From Paracoccus zhejiangensis (GTDB taxonomy: Bacteria > Pseudomonadota > Alphaproteobacteria > Rhodobacterales > Rhodobacteraceae), in the NCBI RefSeq assembly GCF_002847445.1, contig NZ_CP025430.1:1984001-2048000 (forward strand): a stretch of DNA of 64,000 bases, read 5' to 3'. Numbering within the stretch: the stretch's first letter is position 1; each line of letters opens with the position of its first letter. The notes below the pieces were generated by a model. The model was not told the origin of the DNA, searched no databases, and saw only the letters and a program-made list of their open reading frames with translations. The position numbers and the translations under genes are program-made. Below, one piece after another: positions 38,952 through 44,894 of this stretch.

Positions 38952-39374
38952 TCCGGAACCTCGGTGGTCATGGACATCAGGACGCAGGTCCAAGTCCTAG
39001 CCCATTGTCGCGGTTGCTGACCAGAGCCAGCGGCGCAGCCAAGGGTTGTGGGGGAGAGCAGCCCCGCATCCCCGAGGACAAATGCGCCTCGGCGTACCCG
39101 CGATCCAAGATGAGCTGCCGGATGGTGCGCGAGCTATTGCAGGCAATAGGCCAAGGGGCCTTCGGGCATGAGATCGCGAGCAATCCGGAAATATTCTCCA
39201 TCGCGCAGTCATACGGCGGAATTTCATGTTGATTTACAATGCGTTAATATAATTATTGGCATTTCCAACATAGAGTTCATCCACCGATCATAATTGTAAT
39301 AAATATCTTCTATTTCTGCCAATATTAAATCATAATATAATAATCGCTCGCCCGATCCCGTGGGGAGAATACCC
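38952..39374. promoter_or_regulatory. 423-base AT-rich gap with promoter signals for the caspase-metalloprotease genes
   Basis: No gene is supported here. From 39225 to 39350 the sequence turns AT-rich, unlike the surroundings, and contains two exact TATAAT hexamers at 39248-39253 and 39336-39341. No good -35 is spaced correctly for either. The second would give a leader of roughly 25 bases. AT-rich leaders before GC-rich genes are often found on horizontally gained operons. A short open + frame (39100-39232) is not convincing. Confidence 0.55.
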
Positions 39375-42080
39375 ATGTCACTGGTCACCGATTTCCGCAT
39401 CCTGCGCAGCCCGACCGAGATCGAGGCCTTTTTCTGGCGCATCGCCCCCTTCGTCGACGCCCAGGGCATCCGTGCCTTGGTCGAGCATGGCCCCGCCCTG
39501 ACGCGGATCGGCAGCTATGAGGCGCTGGTCGATCGCGCCGGGCGGACCGCCGCCGAGGAAGAGATCACCCATGAGATCGCCCGGGCCAGCAATGGCAGGG
39601 GTCTGCCGCAACTGATCCTTCTGCCCTCTGGCTCGCTGGCGGTGATGGGCTATTTCGGCCGGCTCGAACAGCAGGACAAGGAGAAGCCGGTCGACACGAT
39701 CATCCGGGTGATGATCTGCCCCGCCGCGCCCGATCAGGCCGCGCCCATGCTGGCGGCACTGGCACAGGCCCTGCTGGGCCTGCGCGACTGTGTCGGCGAC
39801 AAGCCGGGGCGCGCGCCCCTGCGCGGACGCCGGGAGATGGCCTGGCCGGAAGCGGTTGCGGCACTCTTTACGCGCGACGCGGTCGAGGCGGCTTATAACC
39901 AGCTGGCAGAGCAGCGGGAGAGCACCGGCGTGCAGCGGCTCACATCGCGTCACCGCGACGTGGTCGAAGCGCATGTCCGCTGGTTTGCCGAGCGGCGCAA
40001 GGATGATGACGAGAGCCTTGCCCGGGAAAAGGCGGCGGCCTCAACGCCCAAGCGCGCGGCCTCGCCAGCCATGCGCACCGCCGGCGCAGATGTCGACATG
40101 AAGCTGCACATCATCAACATGCGGCAAGGCGAGCTGTCGGATCGGGGCTATTTCCAGACCACGGAAAGCGATGTGGCGCGCATCGCCGCCGAGGCCCGCG
40201 ACTGGATCGCGGCAGGCAACGGGCGGAGGCTGGTGGTCTATGCCCATGGCGGGTTGGTCAGCGAGGAAGACGCGGTCAGATACGCGCGCGACACCGTTGG
40301 CTGGTGGCTGGAGAACGATGTCTACCCGGTCTTCTGCATCTGGGAGAGCGACGCCCTGACCAGCATCCTGCAGTTGGTCCGCGAATCCCTGGGCGGCGAC
40401 CGGCGCGGTCCCTTCGACTGGGGCGAGATGCGCGACGCGGCGATCGAGCGGCTGGTTCACCTGCTGGGCCAACAGGTCTGGGACGTGATCAAGCGCAGCG
40501 CGGCGCGCTGTTCCGCCGATGGCCGGCAATTCGGACTGACGCTGTTCGCCGCCAAGTTGAACGAGGCGTTTGGCACCGGTTTCCCGCCGATCGATCTGGT
40601 CGGTCACAGCGCCGGTTCGATCCTGCATCTTGCCTTCCTCGCACGGCTTCGGGTCGAGAAGATCCCGGTGGAAACACTCCAGACCCTGGCCCCGGCGGCG
40701 AGTTGCAGGCTCTACGCCGATGGATTGGCTGCGCATGGTGACGTGCTGAAAACCCGCATATACGCGATGCAGGATCGGTTCGAGCGTGACGACAATGTCA
40801 TGGGCCTCTATGGCAAGTCGCTGCTCTACCTGGTGTCGCGCGGTTTCGAAGAACAGTTCGGCGAGCCGATTTCGGGTCTGCAAAAGGATTTGCTCGCGGA
40901 CCGGCGCCTTGTCGGCTTGCTGTCGAATTGGTCGGGGGGCGTCACACGCGAGGCGATGGTGTTCTCGCCGACGCCCCCGGATGCGCCCAAGCGGCTCAAG
41001 TCCGGCGCGATCAGTCACGGCGCGTTTGACACTGACTCGGAAACCATGTGGTCGGTCATGGCGCTGATCCGCGGCGACGGCGATCCGGACAGGATCACCG
41101 AATTCCCGAAGCTCGAGGACAGCGCGCGCGGGGACAGCGCGCACAGCCCTAGCTTTGATCTGCCCGAGGAGGTTCGTACCTATCTTGCGCTCGCACGATC
41201 CGGCGTGCCTGCGGGCGGCACAGGCTCGACTGACCCGGCGCCCGCGCCCTCGCTTCCGGCCGAAGCGCGGCAGGGTCGCAAGCTGGCGCTGACCATCGGC
41301 ATCAACGACTATGACGTGATGAACCGGCTGCAGGGTTGCGTGAACGACTCGAACATCTGGCGCGACCTTCTGTTGGCGCAGGGGTACAACGTCACGCAAC
41401 TGATCCGGGGCGAAGAGACGGGGCGCGACCAGATCACCCGGCAATTGCGCGACTTTGTCGGGCAATCGGCGCCGGGCGATAGCCTGGTCTGGCATTTCTC
41501 GGGCCACGGGATGGAGATAGAGGGGGTCGTGGGCGATGACAATGATGCCGAGATCCGCGGCGTCGATCAGGCCATTGTTGCCGCGAATGCCAGCGAAACC
41601 CTGACCGGACAATTGTCCCATGCGATCATGGATGACGAGCTGCACGCCATCCTGCAGGGCGTGAACCCGCAGGCGGCCTGCTATGTGTTTCTGGACAGCT
41701 GCTTTTCCGGCTCGGCCACCCGCTTCTCGGTTCGCGGTCGCAAGCGCAGCCTGGGAACCCTGCGCATGGCGGGCCGCAGCGGTCGCGGCAGGGGGCTGAC
41801 CGCGCCGATCAACCCCGGAATCCGCAGCGCCTATGACGGCACCGGCCATGTGCTGTTCAGCGCCTGCTCGGCCACGCAGACGGCGATGGAGGACGGCACG
41901 CCGCCGCAGGGCCTGTTCACGCGCGCGGTTCGCGACCTGCTGCAGAACCCGGGAGCGACGCTGAGCAACGCGAACTTCTGCCTGCGCGTGAACGAGCTGA
42001 TCCCCGGCAATGACCAGACCCCGGGCCTCTACTGCGACCCATCCCGGCGCGACCTTGCCTTTCCGCTGGCCGGGCGCTGA
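39375..42080 (+). CDS. Alpha/beta-hydrolase fused to caspase-like (C14) peptidase
   Basis: 901 residues in three parts. Residues 1-240 are not recognised. About 285-580 is a serine alpha/beta-hydrolase: YAHGGLVSEED near 289-299 and the nucleophile elbow GHSAGS at 410-415 (Ser412). A Pro/Ala linker (about 596-635) leads to a metacaspase-like domain: KLALTIGINDYD at 636, WHFSGHG with catalytic His711, FLDSCFSGS with nucleophile Cys776, and the p10-like SACSATQTAMEDG. ATG at 39375 has GGGGAG 9 bases upstream. No signal peptide, so it should act in the cytosol. The next gene begins 3 bases after its stop. Confidence 0.88.
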   Translation: MSLVTDFRILRSPTEIEAFFWRIAPFVDAQGIRALVEHGPALTRIGSYEALVDRAGRTAAEEEITHEIARASNGRGLPQLILLPSGSLAVMGYFGRLEQQDKEKPVDTIIRVMICPAAPDQAAPMLAALAQALLGLRDCVGDKPGRAPLRGRREMAWPEAVAALFTRDAVEAAYNQLAEQRESTGVQRLTSRHRDVVEAHVRWFAERRKDDDESLAREKAAASTPKRAASPAMRTAGADVDMKLHIINMRQGELSDRGYFQTTESDVARIAAEARDWIAAGNGRRLVVYAHGGLVSEEDAVRYARDTVGWWLENDVYPVFCIWESDALTSILQLVRESLGGDRRGPFDWGEMRDAAIERLVHLLGQQVWDVIKRSAARCSADGRQFGLTLFAAKLNEAFGTGFPPIDLVGHSAGSILHLAFLARLRVEKIPVETLQTLAPAASCRLYADGLAAHGDVLKTRIYAMQDRFERDDNVMGLYGKSLLYLVSRGFEEQFGEPISGLQKDLLADRRLVGLLSNWSGGVTREAMVFSPTPPDAPKRLKSGAISHGAFDTDSETMWSVMALIRGDGDPDRITEFPKLEDSARGDSAHSPSFDLPEEVRTYLALARSGVPAGGTGSTDPAPAPSLPAEARQGRKLALTIGINDYDVMNRLQGCVNDSNIWRDLLLAQGYNVTQLIRGEETGRDQITRQLRDFVGQSAPGDSLVWHFSGHGMEIEGVVGDDNDAEIRGVDQAIVAANASETLTGQLSHAIMDDELHAILQGVNPQAACYVFLDSCFSGSATRFSVRGRKRSLGTLRMAGRSGRGRGLTAPINPGIRSAYDGTGHVLFSACSATQTAMEDGTPPQGLFTRAVRDLLQNPGATLSNANFCLRVNELIPGNDQTPGLYCDPSRRDLAFPLAGR

Positions 42081-42083
42081 GCC

Positions 42084-43895
42084 ATGGGCGATCTTCCCCG
42101 CTGCACCGTCTCCGCGTTCATCGGCCGCGAGGCCGGGGTGGCCGCGGCCTGTTACCTGCTGAAGGGCAACATCCCCGCGGCGCTGCGCAAGGGTCAGGTC
42201 TATACGGTCGACAGCGCGATCCGCATTTCCGAAGGCGCGTTCTCCGAGATCAGCATCCCGCACGAGCCGCTGCGGCCCGGACCCGAGGGCAAGCTGTTCG
42301 CCGTCAGCGCCACCGATTTCGAGACCGGGCTGGACCGCAGTTTTCCCGATCTCGACCGCAGCAGGGGCGGTGAGTTCGGCTTTGACCAGGGCGATTTCGA
42401 GACCCATTGCCGCAATGTCTATTTCTCGGCCATGTCGGTCTATGAACTGTTCCGCCGCGCGCTGGGGCGGCCGGTGGCCTGGGCCTTCTGGAGCGAGGAC
42501 AAGCACCCGCCGCTGCGCCTGCGACCCTTCGCCCAGAGGGCGCTGAACGCCTATTACGACCGCGACCGGGCCGAGATCGGCTTTGGCTTCGACCGCGCCA
42601 GCCCCGACAGCGCCCGGGCCGATGCCCGGCTGCTGCGCTTTACCGCGCTGTCCAGCGACGTGGTGGCCCATGAGGTGACACACGCGCTGCTGGACGGGCT
42701 GCGACCGGATTACGACTTGCCGGTGCATCCAGATGTCTTTGCCTTTCACGAGGCCGTCGCCGATATCGTGGCGCTGCTGTCGCGCTTTACCCGGCAGAAT
42801 TACCTGGCCTATGTGCTGGCCGATTTCCGCAAGCGCGGGCTGAAATATGACTTCATGACCAGTCTCGCGCCCGAACTGGGCCGGTTGGTGCGGAAATCGG
42901 GGCTGCGGACGCTGACGGTGGAGCCGAACGACTACGACGCCGGTCTCGCGCCCTTCGACACGCCGCGCTATGTCACCGCCGAGCTTGCCGCCCATGAGCG
43001 CGGTGGCCTGTTGTCCTCGGCGGTGTTCGAGGCCTTTCTTCAGGCGCTGATGCGGCGGATCAAGCCGCTGGTGGATCTGGTCGCGCCGCAGGGCAACGGC
43101 GTCGCAGACCGCTATCTGATCGAGCAGATCCAGCACATCGCCGCCACCACCGCAGGGCATTTTCTGGAAATCTGCATCCGGGCGCTGGACTATTGCCCGC
43201 CGGCCTCGATCCGCTTTGCCGATTACCTGCGCGCGCTGATCACCGCCGACCAGATCCTGGTCGCGGATGATCGCTATGGCTATCGCGAGAGCCTGATCGA
43301 GGCCTTTCGCAACCGTGGCATCTATCCCGAGGATATCGATGTCGTCTCCGAGGCCGAGCTACGATGGAACGCGCCCAGCATCCCGGTCTCGCGCATCCCG
43401 GGTCTTGCCCTGTCGGAACTGCGCTTCGACATCTCACCGGTGCTGCCGCGTTCGGCGGATGAGGTGCGCCGGCAGGCACAGGCGCTGGCGCTGGCTATCG
43501 ATGACGATCCGCGACTGGCGCGCGAGATGGGGCTGGCCGACCCCGGCGAGGTCAAGGGTGGTGACGTGTCCCCGCCAGTTGTCACCTCGATCCGCCCGAC
43601 GCTGCGGGTTGGGCGCGAGGGCTATGTGGATTTCTCGATCATCGCCGAGGTGACGCAGGATCGGCTGGTGACCATCGATGGTGGCACCGTGCGTTTGCGC
43701 GGCGGGGCGACGCTGATCCTGGGACCGCAGGGCGATCCGCAGATGATCGTGCGCCAGCGGATCGACAATGAGGCGCGCATCAAGGCCGAGACGGACCATC
43801 TGCAACAGGCCATCGCCGGGCGGCAGTTGGTGCTGCAGGATGGCCGCTATGTGGTCGCGCAGGACTATCGCCACGCGATGTGCGGCAGTCACTGA
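42084..43895 (+). CDS. Gluzincin-type metalloprotease (partner of the caspase-hydrolase)
   Basis: 603-residue cytosolic protein without a signal peptide. The zinc site reads HEVTH at residues 196-200, and the third ligand motif is HEAVAD at 222-227 with Glu223, the arrangement of thermolysin-like gluzincins (HExxH plus a downstream E with conserved Asp). The preceding segment ends NAYYDRDRAEIGFGFD, as in other gluzincins just before the zinc helix. A beta-rich C-terminal region (about 490-603) is not recognised. It follows the caspase gene after 3 bases, so they form one operon; the dusA gene ends convergently 3 bases later. Confidence 0.87.
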   Translation: MGDLPRCTVSAFIGREAGVAAACYLLKGNIPAALRKGQVYTVDSAIRISEGAFSEISIPHEPLRPGPEGKLFAVSATDFETGLDRSFPDLDRSRGGEFGFDQGDFETHCRNVYFSAMSVYELFRRALGRPVAWAFWSEDKHPPLRLRPFAQRALNAYYDRDRAEIGFGFDRASPDSARADARLLRFTALSSDVVAHEVTHALLDGLRPDYDLPVHPDVFAFHEAVADIVALLSRFTRQNYLAYVLADFRKRGLKYDFMTSLAPELGRLVRKSGLRTLTVEPNDYDAGLAPFDTPRYVTAELAAHERGGLLSSAVFEAFLQALMRRIKPLVDLVAPQGNGVADRYLIEQIQHIAATTAGHFLEICIRALDYCPPASIRFADYLRALITADQILVADDRYGYRESLIEAFRNRGIYPEDIDVVSEAELRWNAPSIPVSRIPGLALSELRFDISPVLPRSADEVRRQAQALALAIDDDPRLAREMGLADPGEVKGGDVSPPVVTSIRPTLRVGREGYVDFSIIAEVTQDRLVTIDGGTVRLRGGATLILGPQGDPQMIVRQRIDNEARIKAETDHLQQAIAGRQLVLQDGRYVVAQDYRHAMCGSH

Positions 43896-43898
43896 GGC

Positions 43899-44894
43899 TC
43901 AGCCGACCGGCTGCGCCACCTCGGCCAGCGCCGCGTCATAGACCTCGATCCCGCCGCGGCTCGCGCCCTCCGACAGCACCCGCCGCCAGTTCCGCGCGCC
44001 ACTGCGGCCGTGGAACAGGCCCAGCATGTGGCGGGTCATCTGGTGCAGCCGTCCGCCCGCTGCGAGATGATCGAGCAGCAGCGGCCGCATCGCCAGCGCC
44101 ACATCGACCGGATCGGCAAAGGGCGGCGTGTCGCCCCACAGCCGGTCAGCCTCGCCCAGAATATCCCAGGGCCGGTGATAGGCCGCCCGGCCCAGCATCG
44201 CCCCGTCCATCACTTCCAGATGATCCCGCGCGGCGTCCAGCGTCTCGATCCCGCCATTGATCGACAGGTGGAGATCGGGAAAGGCCGCCTTCATCCGGTG
44301 GACCAGCGGATAGTCCAGCGGCGGGATCTCGCGGTTGTCCTTGGGGCTCAGCCCCTGCAGCCAGGCCTTGCGGGCGTGGATGGCGATGCGACGCACACCT
44401 GCCGCCTGCATCTTCTCCAGAAAAGCGGGCAGCACCTCCTCGGGGTCCTGCTCGTCCACGCCGATGCGGCATTTCACCGTCACCTCGACCGGGCTTTCCG
44501 CGATCATGCCCGCAACGCAATCGGCGACCAGGTCGGGCGTCTTCATCAGCACCGCGCCGAAACAGCCCGACTGCACCCGGTCGCTGGGGCAGCCGACATT
44601 CAGGTTGATCTCGTCATAGCCCCAATCCGCCGCGATCCGCGTCGCCGCCCGGAGCTCCGCCGGGTCCGACCCACCCAGTTGCAGGGCCAAGGGATGCTCG
44701 ACCGCCGCATAATCCAGCAGACGCCCCCGGTCGCCATGGATGACCGCCGGCGCCGTGACCATCTCGGTATAAAGCAGCGCGCGGCGCGAGATCATCCGGT
44801 GGAAGATCCGGCAATTGCGATCCGTCCAGTCCATCATCGGGGCGACGGACAGGCGAGACGCGTCACGAATTACCGATTTTTCGACACTCGACAT
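43899..44894 (-). CDS. dusA: tRNA-dihydrouridine synthase A
   Basis: FMN-dependent enzyme that reduces uridines 20 and 20a in the tRNA D-loop. 331 residues. Hallmarks: LSVAPMMDWTDRNCRIFHRM at the N-terminus, YDEINLNVGCPSDRVQSGCF with the catalytic Cys, and INGGIETLDAARDHLEVMDG with the flavin-phosphate site. It follows gltX after 50 bases on the same strand. Confidence 0.95.
   Translation of the reverse strand: MSSVEKSVIRDASRLSVAPMMDWTDRNCRIFHRMISRRALLYTEMVTAPAVIHGDRGRLLDYAAVEHPLALQLGGSDPAELRAATRIAADWGYDEINLNVGCPSDRVQSGCFGAVLMKTPDLVADCVAGMIAESPVEVTVKCRIGVDEQDPEEVLPAFLEKMQAAGVRRIAIHARKAWLQGLSPKDNREIPPLDYPLVHRMKAAFPDLHLSINGGIETLDAARDHLEVMDGAMLGRAAYHRPWDILGEADRLWGDTPPFADPVDVALAMRPLLLDHLAAGGRLHQMTRHMLGLFHGRSGARNWRRVLSEGASRGGIEVYDAALAEVAQPVG

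Follow-up and report, generated by a model that had tools for sequence, protein, structure and literature searches.

The 64,000-nucleotide stretch of the Paracoccus zhejiangensis genome analysed here (contig NZ_CP025430.1, positions 1,984,001 to 2,048,000; hereafter the window, in whose coordinates all positions are given) contains two adjacent forward-strand genes, the first coding for a caspase / alpha-beta-hydrolase protein (gene 1) and the second for a zinc metallopeptidase of the gluzincin type (gene 2), and this caspase gene and gluzincin gene very probably form one unit. The gluzincin rather than the caspase appears to be the constant part of the arrangement, since gluzincins of this family are elsewhere paired with several different hydrolases. 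By analogy with described systems, it is quite possible, if somewhat short of an even chance, that the pair is a latent cytosolic two-protease module for conflict or self-killing that moves horizontally.

The case for a unit comes first of all from recurrence. When the genomes of GTDB species were scanned with a gluzincin profile, at least 579 relatives were retrieved, and the best 80 loci were analysed; being the best-scoring of at least 579, these are biased to the window's type. A C14 gene was located directly upstream on the same strand in 47 of the 80, and the caspase-paired loci spanned at least nine phyla, namely Pseudomonadota, Acidobacteriota, Chlorobiota, Planctomycetota, Gemmatimonadota, Verrucomicrobiota, Chloroflexota, Armatimonadota and Thermodesulfobacteriota. 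The intergenic gap fell between -11 and +15 bases in 36 of the 47 pairs, with the gluzincin start taken as the in-frame one closest to the preceding stop codon, a rule that favours small gaps. Catalytic residues were inspected in 41 caspase and 79 gluzincin proteins; the C14 His and Cys were both kept in all 41 of the former, and H196, E197, H200, E223 and H304 (gene 2 numbering) in all 79 of the latter, from which both enzymes look active. Thus, the adjacency and the intact active sites, on which an earlier sequence-only reading of this DNA had staked its proposal of a two-gene system, are indeed found in the homologues.

Secondly, the two genes appear to have been inherited together. Pairwise distances for gene 1 correlated with those for gene 2 at r 0.92 in a Mantel test of 38 of the 47 pairs, i.e., those with the hydrolase and caspase domains both spanned (0 of 2000 permutations), and at r 0.88 over 35 pairs when the Paracoccus clade was omitted. 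Several cross-phylum groupings were shared by both gene trees, joining Opitutaceae with Chromatiales, Armatimonadota with Methylococcaceae, and Desulfobulbaceae with Nitrosomonas, which argues that the two genes travel together.

The remaining 33 gluzincin loci, without a caspase, revealed the wider arrangement: 26 have another hydrolase partner and 7 have no recognised partner. In 11 loci a subtilase is fused N-terminally to the gluzincin and is followed by a downstream gene of the metallo-beta-lactamase (MBL) fold; in 5 the gluzincin occurs with the MBL gene alone; in 7 it is accompanied by an M43 (PAPP-A-type) metalloprotease and a protein of about 112 amino acids; and in 3 an astacin-like gene lies downstream. 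Three of the 7 partnerless loci are at contig edges, and one, in an uncultured Paracoccus relative (L005), has an internal deletion of gene 1. In the gluzincin tree (79 of the 80 rows), the subtilase/MBL, astacin and M43 loci each formed a clade of their own, that of the M43 loci including one contig-edge locus (L059); the astacin and M43 clades were nested, with moderate support, among the caspase-paired gluzincins. The partners also retain their motifs: THxHxDH is kept in 16 of 16 MBL proteins, the HE.GHY.NLRH residues do not vary among the 7 M43 proteins, and the GTS region is kept in most of the 11 fused subtilases. These data bear on the simplest rival, in which the two window genes are neighbours only, coding for cytosolic proteases that work independently and are transferred together as an operon. 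Caspase proteins without a gluzincin and gluzincins without a caspase do both exist, as such a view would expect, but the strong co-variation of the gene distances and the frequency of other hydrolase partners at the non-caspase loci make it very improbable.

Gene 1 (39375..42080, + strand; 901 amino acids) was delimited by its start codon, Pfam and relatives, and was read from the ATG at 39375, where the mechanical open reading frame list begins instead at a GTG at 39360. Its sole Pfam family is PF00656, Peptidase_C14, at residues 635-891 (41277..42047, + strand), with an E value of 3e-25 and 89.7 bits versus a cut-off of 21.4. The catalytic residues of this metacaspase-type domain, placed by motif position, are His711 in SGHG 709-712 (41505-41507, + strand) and Cys776 in DSCFSG 774-779 (41700-41702, + strand); both align to metacaspases-1 and -4, which were also the best solved relatives of the domain by sequence. 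As judged from these matches, gene 1 belongs to peptidase family C14, metacaspase/orthocaspase type. It also matched the PADLOC 'caspase' model (E 5e-12), and fell below the NCBIfam cut-off for the EACC1-associated caspase NF047832 (35.6 versus 140 bits). Asp658 and Asp774 are kept in 41 of 41 relatives and both align with metacaspase positions, and Ser709 is replaced by Ala in 22 of the 41; we take these three to be positions of the acidic S1 pocket of metacaspases, and cleavage after Arg or Lys is tentatively predicted. Asp731, Asp753 and Asp754 are invariant across the 41 caspase proteins. Metacaspase and thermolysin are both Ca2+-dependent enzymes, and from this comes the idea that Ca2+ might gate the pair.

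The middle of gene 1, approximately residues 237-600 (40083..41174, + strand), probably adopts an alpha/beta-hydrolase fold, on the strength of motifs and of weak matches in relatives. It carries an oxyanion-type HGG at 291-293, GHSAGS at 410-415 with Ser412 at 40608-40610, and His548; in the relatives, H291 and S412 were each found in 40 of 41 (one gap), D473 in 40 of 41, and H548 in 41 of 41. Pfam did not call this domain in the window protein, and the equivalent region of two relatives gave matches below the cut-off, to Abhydrolase_3 in one (L105) and to DUF900 in the other (L106). The numbering of Ser412, His711 and Cys776 and the C14 domain given in the sequence-only reading are therefore correct by Pfam and motif position; of the hydrolase-caspase fusion that it described, the caspase part was confirmed by Pfam, and the hydrolase part, uncalled in the window protein itself, is supported by the motifs and weak matches of relatives.

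The N-terminal region of gene 1 (residues 1-236; 39375..40082, + strand) has no family, and stands where most caspase relatives have an amidase. Of the 47 caspase partners, 33 combine amidase, hydrolase and caspase, 8 hydrolase and caspase, and 3 amidase and caspase, while in 3 only the caspase part was matched; an amidase of the Amidase_2, peptidoglycan-recognition type is thus present in 36 of 47. The only such domain compared with the PDB (from L017) had Drosophila PGRP-LB as its best solved relative (E 2.5e-9), and an H...H...C pattern conserved over 38 amidase sequences fits a zinc site, these residues presumably being the ligands. Neither Pfam nor profile comparison detected this domain in the window protein, and a search with residues 1-236 alone retrieved only 3 close proteins. 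The possibility that the region is a decayed amidase was considered and found unsupported (hhalign probability against the amidase profile, 0.4%).

Gene 2 (42084..43895, + strand), which begins 3 bases beyond the gene 1 stop, codes for a 603-residue M4-like gluzincin metallopeptidase, recognised by profiles and motifs. Its C-terminal region is conserved, and the gluzincin profile was matched to near its end across all partner types. Motif and family alignment placed the HEVTH zinc motif at residues 196-200 (42669..42683, + strand) and the third zinc ligand, Glu223 of FHEA, at 42750..42752 (+ strand); the family alignment added His304 (42993..42995, + strand), at what we take to be the position expected for thermolysin His231, and NAYY at 155 presumably holds the place of thermolysin Asn112. 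Against the Pfam M4 family (PF01447), gene 2 scored 12.8 bits (cut-off 22.4, E 0.16), and 7 of 34 aligned family members matched at an E value of 0.1 or lower, the best at 2e-4. Because it lies below the Pfam cut-off, it is called M4-like and is not placed in M4. It resembles thermolysin family M4 in the HEXXH motif, the downstream Glu and, by an equivalence that we assume, the order of the NAxY and His motifs; it differs in having no apparent signal or propeptide as well as in its Pfam score. The 3-base spacing, HEVTH and Glu223 of the sequence-only reading were all accurate, and its gluzincin is more closely described as M4-like. No PDB relative was retrieved by profile search at E 0.01, and no PADLOC model was matched. 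The family is large, with 3196 sequences at an E value of 0.001 or lower among 8000 candidates scored.

Where would such proteins act? A simple hydropathy scan revealed no strongly hydrophobic N-terminus in either window protein, so that no signal peptide is apparent, as the sequence-only reading had said. Amidase, esterase and protease together make a typical effector repertoire, which would suit a pair of antagonistic effectors that attack other cells after export, injection (for example through a type VI-like apparatus) or release on lysis. Caspase domains are reported in polymorphic toxins (PMC3482391). Nonetheless, most relatives also have no strongly hydrophobic N-terminus (up to 14 listed per architecture), a few with uncertain starts reaching 1.6-1.8 in the scan; no secretion or immunity gene recurred among 117 neighbours (25 commonest of 126 families); and the pair occurs across distant phyla, among them Chloroflexota, Armatimonadota and Planctomycetota. 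Effectors aimed at other cells are, on balance, quite improbable.

Several described systems offer analogies for a role within the producing cell. A 2025 Science paper (PMC12799240) reports that the MBL enzymes of AVAST and Hachiman are made as pro-nucleases, which a partner protease activates, and that in the antiphage system canu the activator of the nuclease is a caspase; canu and the AVAST, Hachiman and Lamassu MBL nucleases share with the present loci a caspase-family or other protease teamed with a co-encoded hydrolase. The likeness to Lamassu comes from a sister branch of the gluzincin tree: all 6 of the MBL partners compared (chosen from 16) matched the PADLOC LmuA model at E 3e-10 to 1e-14, the match spanning only 73 to 109 of the 345 model positions in 5 of them, and MBL partners also matched the Avs1a and RTasMBL models more weakly. 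Unlike canu, the window has a metacaspase-like caspase joined to an alpha/beta-hydrolase, and the partner is a thermolysin-like protease; no MBL-fold gene was named in the window flanks scanned, such genes being present only in the MBL branch of the gluzincins. In the predicted VMAP (MoxR-vWA ternary) conflict systems, the caspase is always accompanied by an alpha/beta-hydrolase gene, according to the portion of PMC7159879 available; the same two activities are fused in gene 1, and the flanks scanned yielded no gene identified as MoxR ATPase, vWA or VMAP. A 2012 list, in its available part, names four Amidase_2-fused metacaspases (from Polaromonas, Nitrosococcus, Chitinophaga and Desulfobacterium) and links them to autolysis (PMC3501461). 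These are probably amidase-bearing relatives of gene 1; they differ from the window protein in their amidase, and the available text mentions neither an alpha/beta-hydrolase nor an adjacent gluzincin. A keyword search of the open-access literature turned up no paper on a system of this composition, in agreement with the sequence-only reading, which knew of no named one.

Taken together, the LmuA-like partners, canu, VMAP, the autolysis-linked metacaspases and the PADLOC 'caspase' match would make a conflict or death role the best single reading of the pair, by analogy and association. A mechanism may be sketched with the gluzincin as its constant element, an M4-like protease teamed with different hydrolases by lineage. 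Gene 1 is its C14 partner, which adds an esterase/lipase-like domain, joined in most relatives by a peptidoglycan amidase. Both proteins would be made in the cytosol and held latent; infection or envelope damage would turn on the caspase domain as a switch; the two proteases would process or license each other; the gluzincin and the hydrolase domain(s) would then serve as executioners, dismantling proteins and envelope; and the cell would be killed or lysed to the benefit of its kin. In this sketch we infer cytosolic location, latency, order of activation, specificity, trigger, killing and antiphage role alike. That it is specifically the caspase of gene 1 that activates the gluzincin is a doubtful point.

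Several observations weigh against a conflict or death role. Among the 13 distinct gluzincin loci found in two evenly drawn genome samples, window included, 3 have a caspase, 9 an MBL gene (3 of them with a subtilase) and 1 neither; with 3 of 13, the caspase type makes up a single branch, outnumbered in these samples by the MBL type. Nor is the pairing obligatory: full-length amidase-hydrolase-caspase genes stand without an adjacent gluzincin in three loci (L128, L129 and L147), and in L005 the gluzincin frame is intact but the hydrolase domain and the greater part of the caspase domain are gone. The subtilase-gluzincin and M43 proteins tested had no PADLOC match. From related loci, the nearest proteins on each side were taken (150 listed, 121 and then 117 used); no Pfam family occurred more than 3 times among the 117 (no random control), and at E 1e-10 PADLOC recognised 15 families, the commonest, mad2, in 2 of 117. 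Known defence genes were therefore not recurrent neighbours, and the defence-island argument is left without support, since no scanned neighbour family recurs more than 3 times and defence matches are few. A pattern-based scan of IMG/VR viral contigs found no relative, and no sensor or signalling domain was recognised in the pair.

These same observations lend themselves to a milder view, in which the enzymes carry out intracellular processing or recycling without cell death, digesting or maturing particular cytosolic substrates such as peptides, misfolded proteins or peptidoglycan peptides taken up from outside; the amidase and hydrolase domains would serve turnover. The absence of an apparent signal peptide and of a defence context, the diversity of flanking genes (many of them metabolic), and the large sensor kinase near a gene 1 relative in L128 are all in line with it, and the loss of most of gene 1 with retention of gene 2 in L005 would be easier if the enzymes were non-lethal. 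It is to be noted, however, that a very patchy distribution, co-transfer across phyla and unrelated partner families in different clades would be unusual for housekeeping enzymes, and that the MBL partners resemble antiphage nucleases; processing or recycling is thus an unlikely explanation.

A broader and more speculative reading may be entertained, to which we give appreciably less than an even chance: the loci would represent a large undescribed family of bacterial protease cascades, in which a constant, propeptide-less thermolysin-like protease has exchangeable partners, and all of these systems would stay latent until infection or envelope breach, whereupon they would dismantle the cell. 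The partners would be a caspase with lipase-like and peptidoglycan-recognition domains, a PAPP-A- or astacin-type metalloprotease, or a subtilisin with an LmuA-like nuclease. If true, the fusion of peptidoglycan recognition with a caspase would be a bacterial counterpart, by resemblance only, of the insect route from peptidoglycan-recognition protein to caspase in immunity. Protease-activated effectors are a newly recognised principle in bacterial immunity, and a gluzincin family with caspase, subtilisin, metalloprotease and LmuA-like partners would offer a handle on the origin of protease cascades, just as a compact two-gene system would allow a direct test of whether bacterial caspases kill cells. 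The amidase in most caspase relatives, the gluzincin as the constant part and the LmuA-like partner branch are new with respect to the sequence-only reading.

The distribution of the family is sparse. At E 1e-20, gluzincins were found in 7 of 390 order-sample genomes and 7 of 398 phylum-sample genomes, with up to 3 first-look gluzincin candidates scored per genome and up to 2 in the gene 1 search. The gene 1 profile matched 37 of the 398 phylum-sample genomes; 3 matches were near full length, namely the window's and two without an adjoining gluzincin. A gene 1 search at E 1e-40 in 11 genomes with other gluzincin types gave no match in 10 and a hydrolase-only match in 1, and matched 19 of 19 caspase-type genomes, as it must. 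Among 101 relatives, gluzincin matches were found in 4: the window genome and two others (G014 and G023) with an upstream C14 gene, and one weak match without. Gluzincin relatives occur in 31 plasmid records (4 of the 20 listed being annotated as S8 peptidases), and in a Kovacikia minuta plasmid record (NZ_CP083583) there are matches to the gluzincin as well as to the amidase-hydrolase-caspase protein. In L005, whose gluzincin is 98% identical to gene 2, gene 1 is cut to residues 1-254 plus 865-901 (L005:9133-9994), either naturally or through an assembly error.

Further observations concern individual loci. The gluzincin-less gene at L147:1294-5669 is a second amidase-hydrolase-caspase gene in a Granulosicoccus genome that also holds locus L010, and what follows it is not a gluzincin but a 512-residue frame that contains a portion of this hydrolase domain. 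The other gluzincin-less caspase genes are near genes with response-regulator-like N-termini, as seen by eye (L128:302-7735, L129:13509-14141), and L128 also codes for a 1694-residue protein with Ser/Thr-kinase, AAA, GAF and histidine-kinase domains. A hydrolase domain like that in gene 1 was joined to a papain-like protease in each of 5 proteins examined (chosen from 11 hydrolase-only loci), and one of them (L131:7830-10520) combines a GH19 (chitinase/lysozyme-like) domain, a papain-like domain and the same alpha/beta-hydrolase domain, a further instance of a wall hydrolase united with a protease and an esterase. Astacin-like genes lie directly upstream of caspase genes at L019:5595-6926 and L159:2-1195, the caspase gene in L019 belonging to a caspase-gluzincin pair, and are a possible third protease in some loci. 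The conserved protein of about 112 residues, between the M43 protease and the gluzincin at L035:4486-4824 and in six other loci, had no Pfam match and no informative PDB match; comparison gave no support to its being a gluzincin relative, and an inhibitor or immunity protein is our guess.

In the window itself, the pair is preceded by an AT-rich intergenic stretch (39233..39362) of 31.5% GC with weak sigma-70-like matches only. The lowest-GC 120-mer of the whole window (25% GC) starts at 39220, which bears out the AT-rich promoter region of the sequence-only reading; between 38700 and 44100, 2 promoter-like sites were found versus 0.8 +/- 0.9 in shuffles. Downstream of gene 2 lies dusA (43899-44894, - strand), identified by Pfam PF01207, so that the pair was rightly placed before dusA. 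Its supposed island-like position was not borne out, as the GC fraction is ordinary (gene 1 0.666, gene 2 0.663, window 0.655) and of the eleven neighbouring frames that were scanned none was assigned to an integrase or phage family. The flanks named were a sigma-54 activator, dusA, a class I tRNA synthetase, PfkB kinases, DUF6280 and an M20 peptidase, with four frames unnamed. The idea of dusA as a hot spot for integration was considered and not adopted: in 18 other genomes of the genus, dusA has no part of the pair beside it (flanks up to about 1.5 kb per side); one of them, G014, has the pair elsewhere, and in Paracoccus sp. M683 (L006) the pair is also beside dusA. A giant protein of about 2359 residues with a strongly hydrophobic N-terminus is encoded divergently, on the - strand, beside the pair in four Paracoccus/Acuticoccus-type loci, L006 (L006:2-7078) and L007-L009; the one of the four scanned had no Pfam match, and the protein was rejected as part of the unit, having no match in the window's own genome in a search without a positive control. 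Lastly, an open frame of 1039 residues runs antisense to both genes (40041-43160, - strand); with no evidence of its being a gene, it is likely a by-product of high GC.

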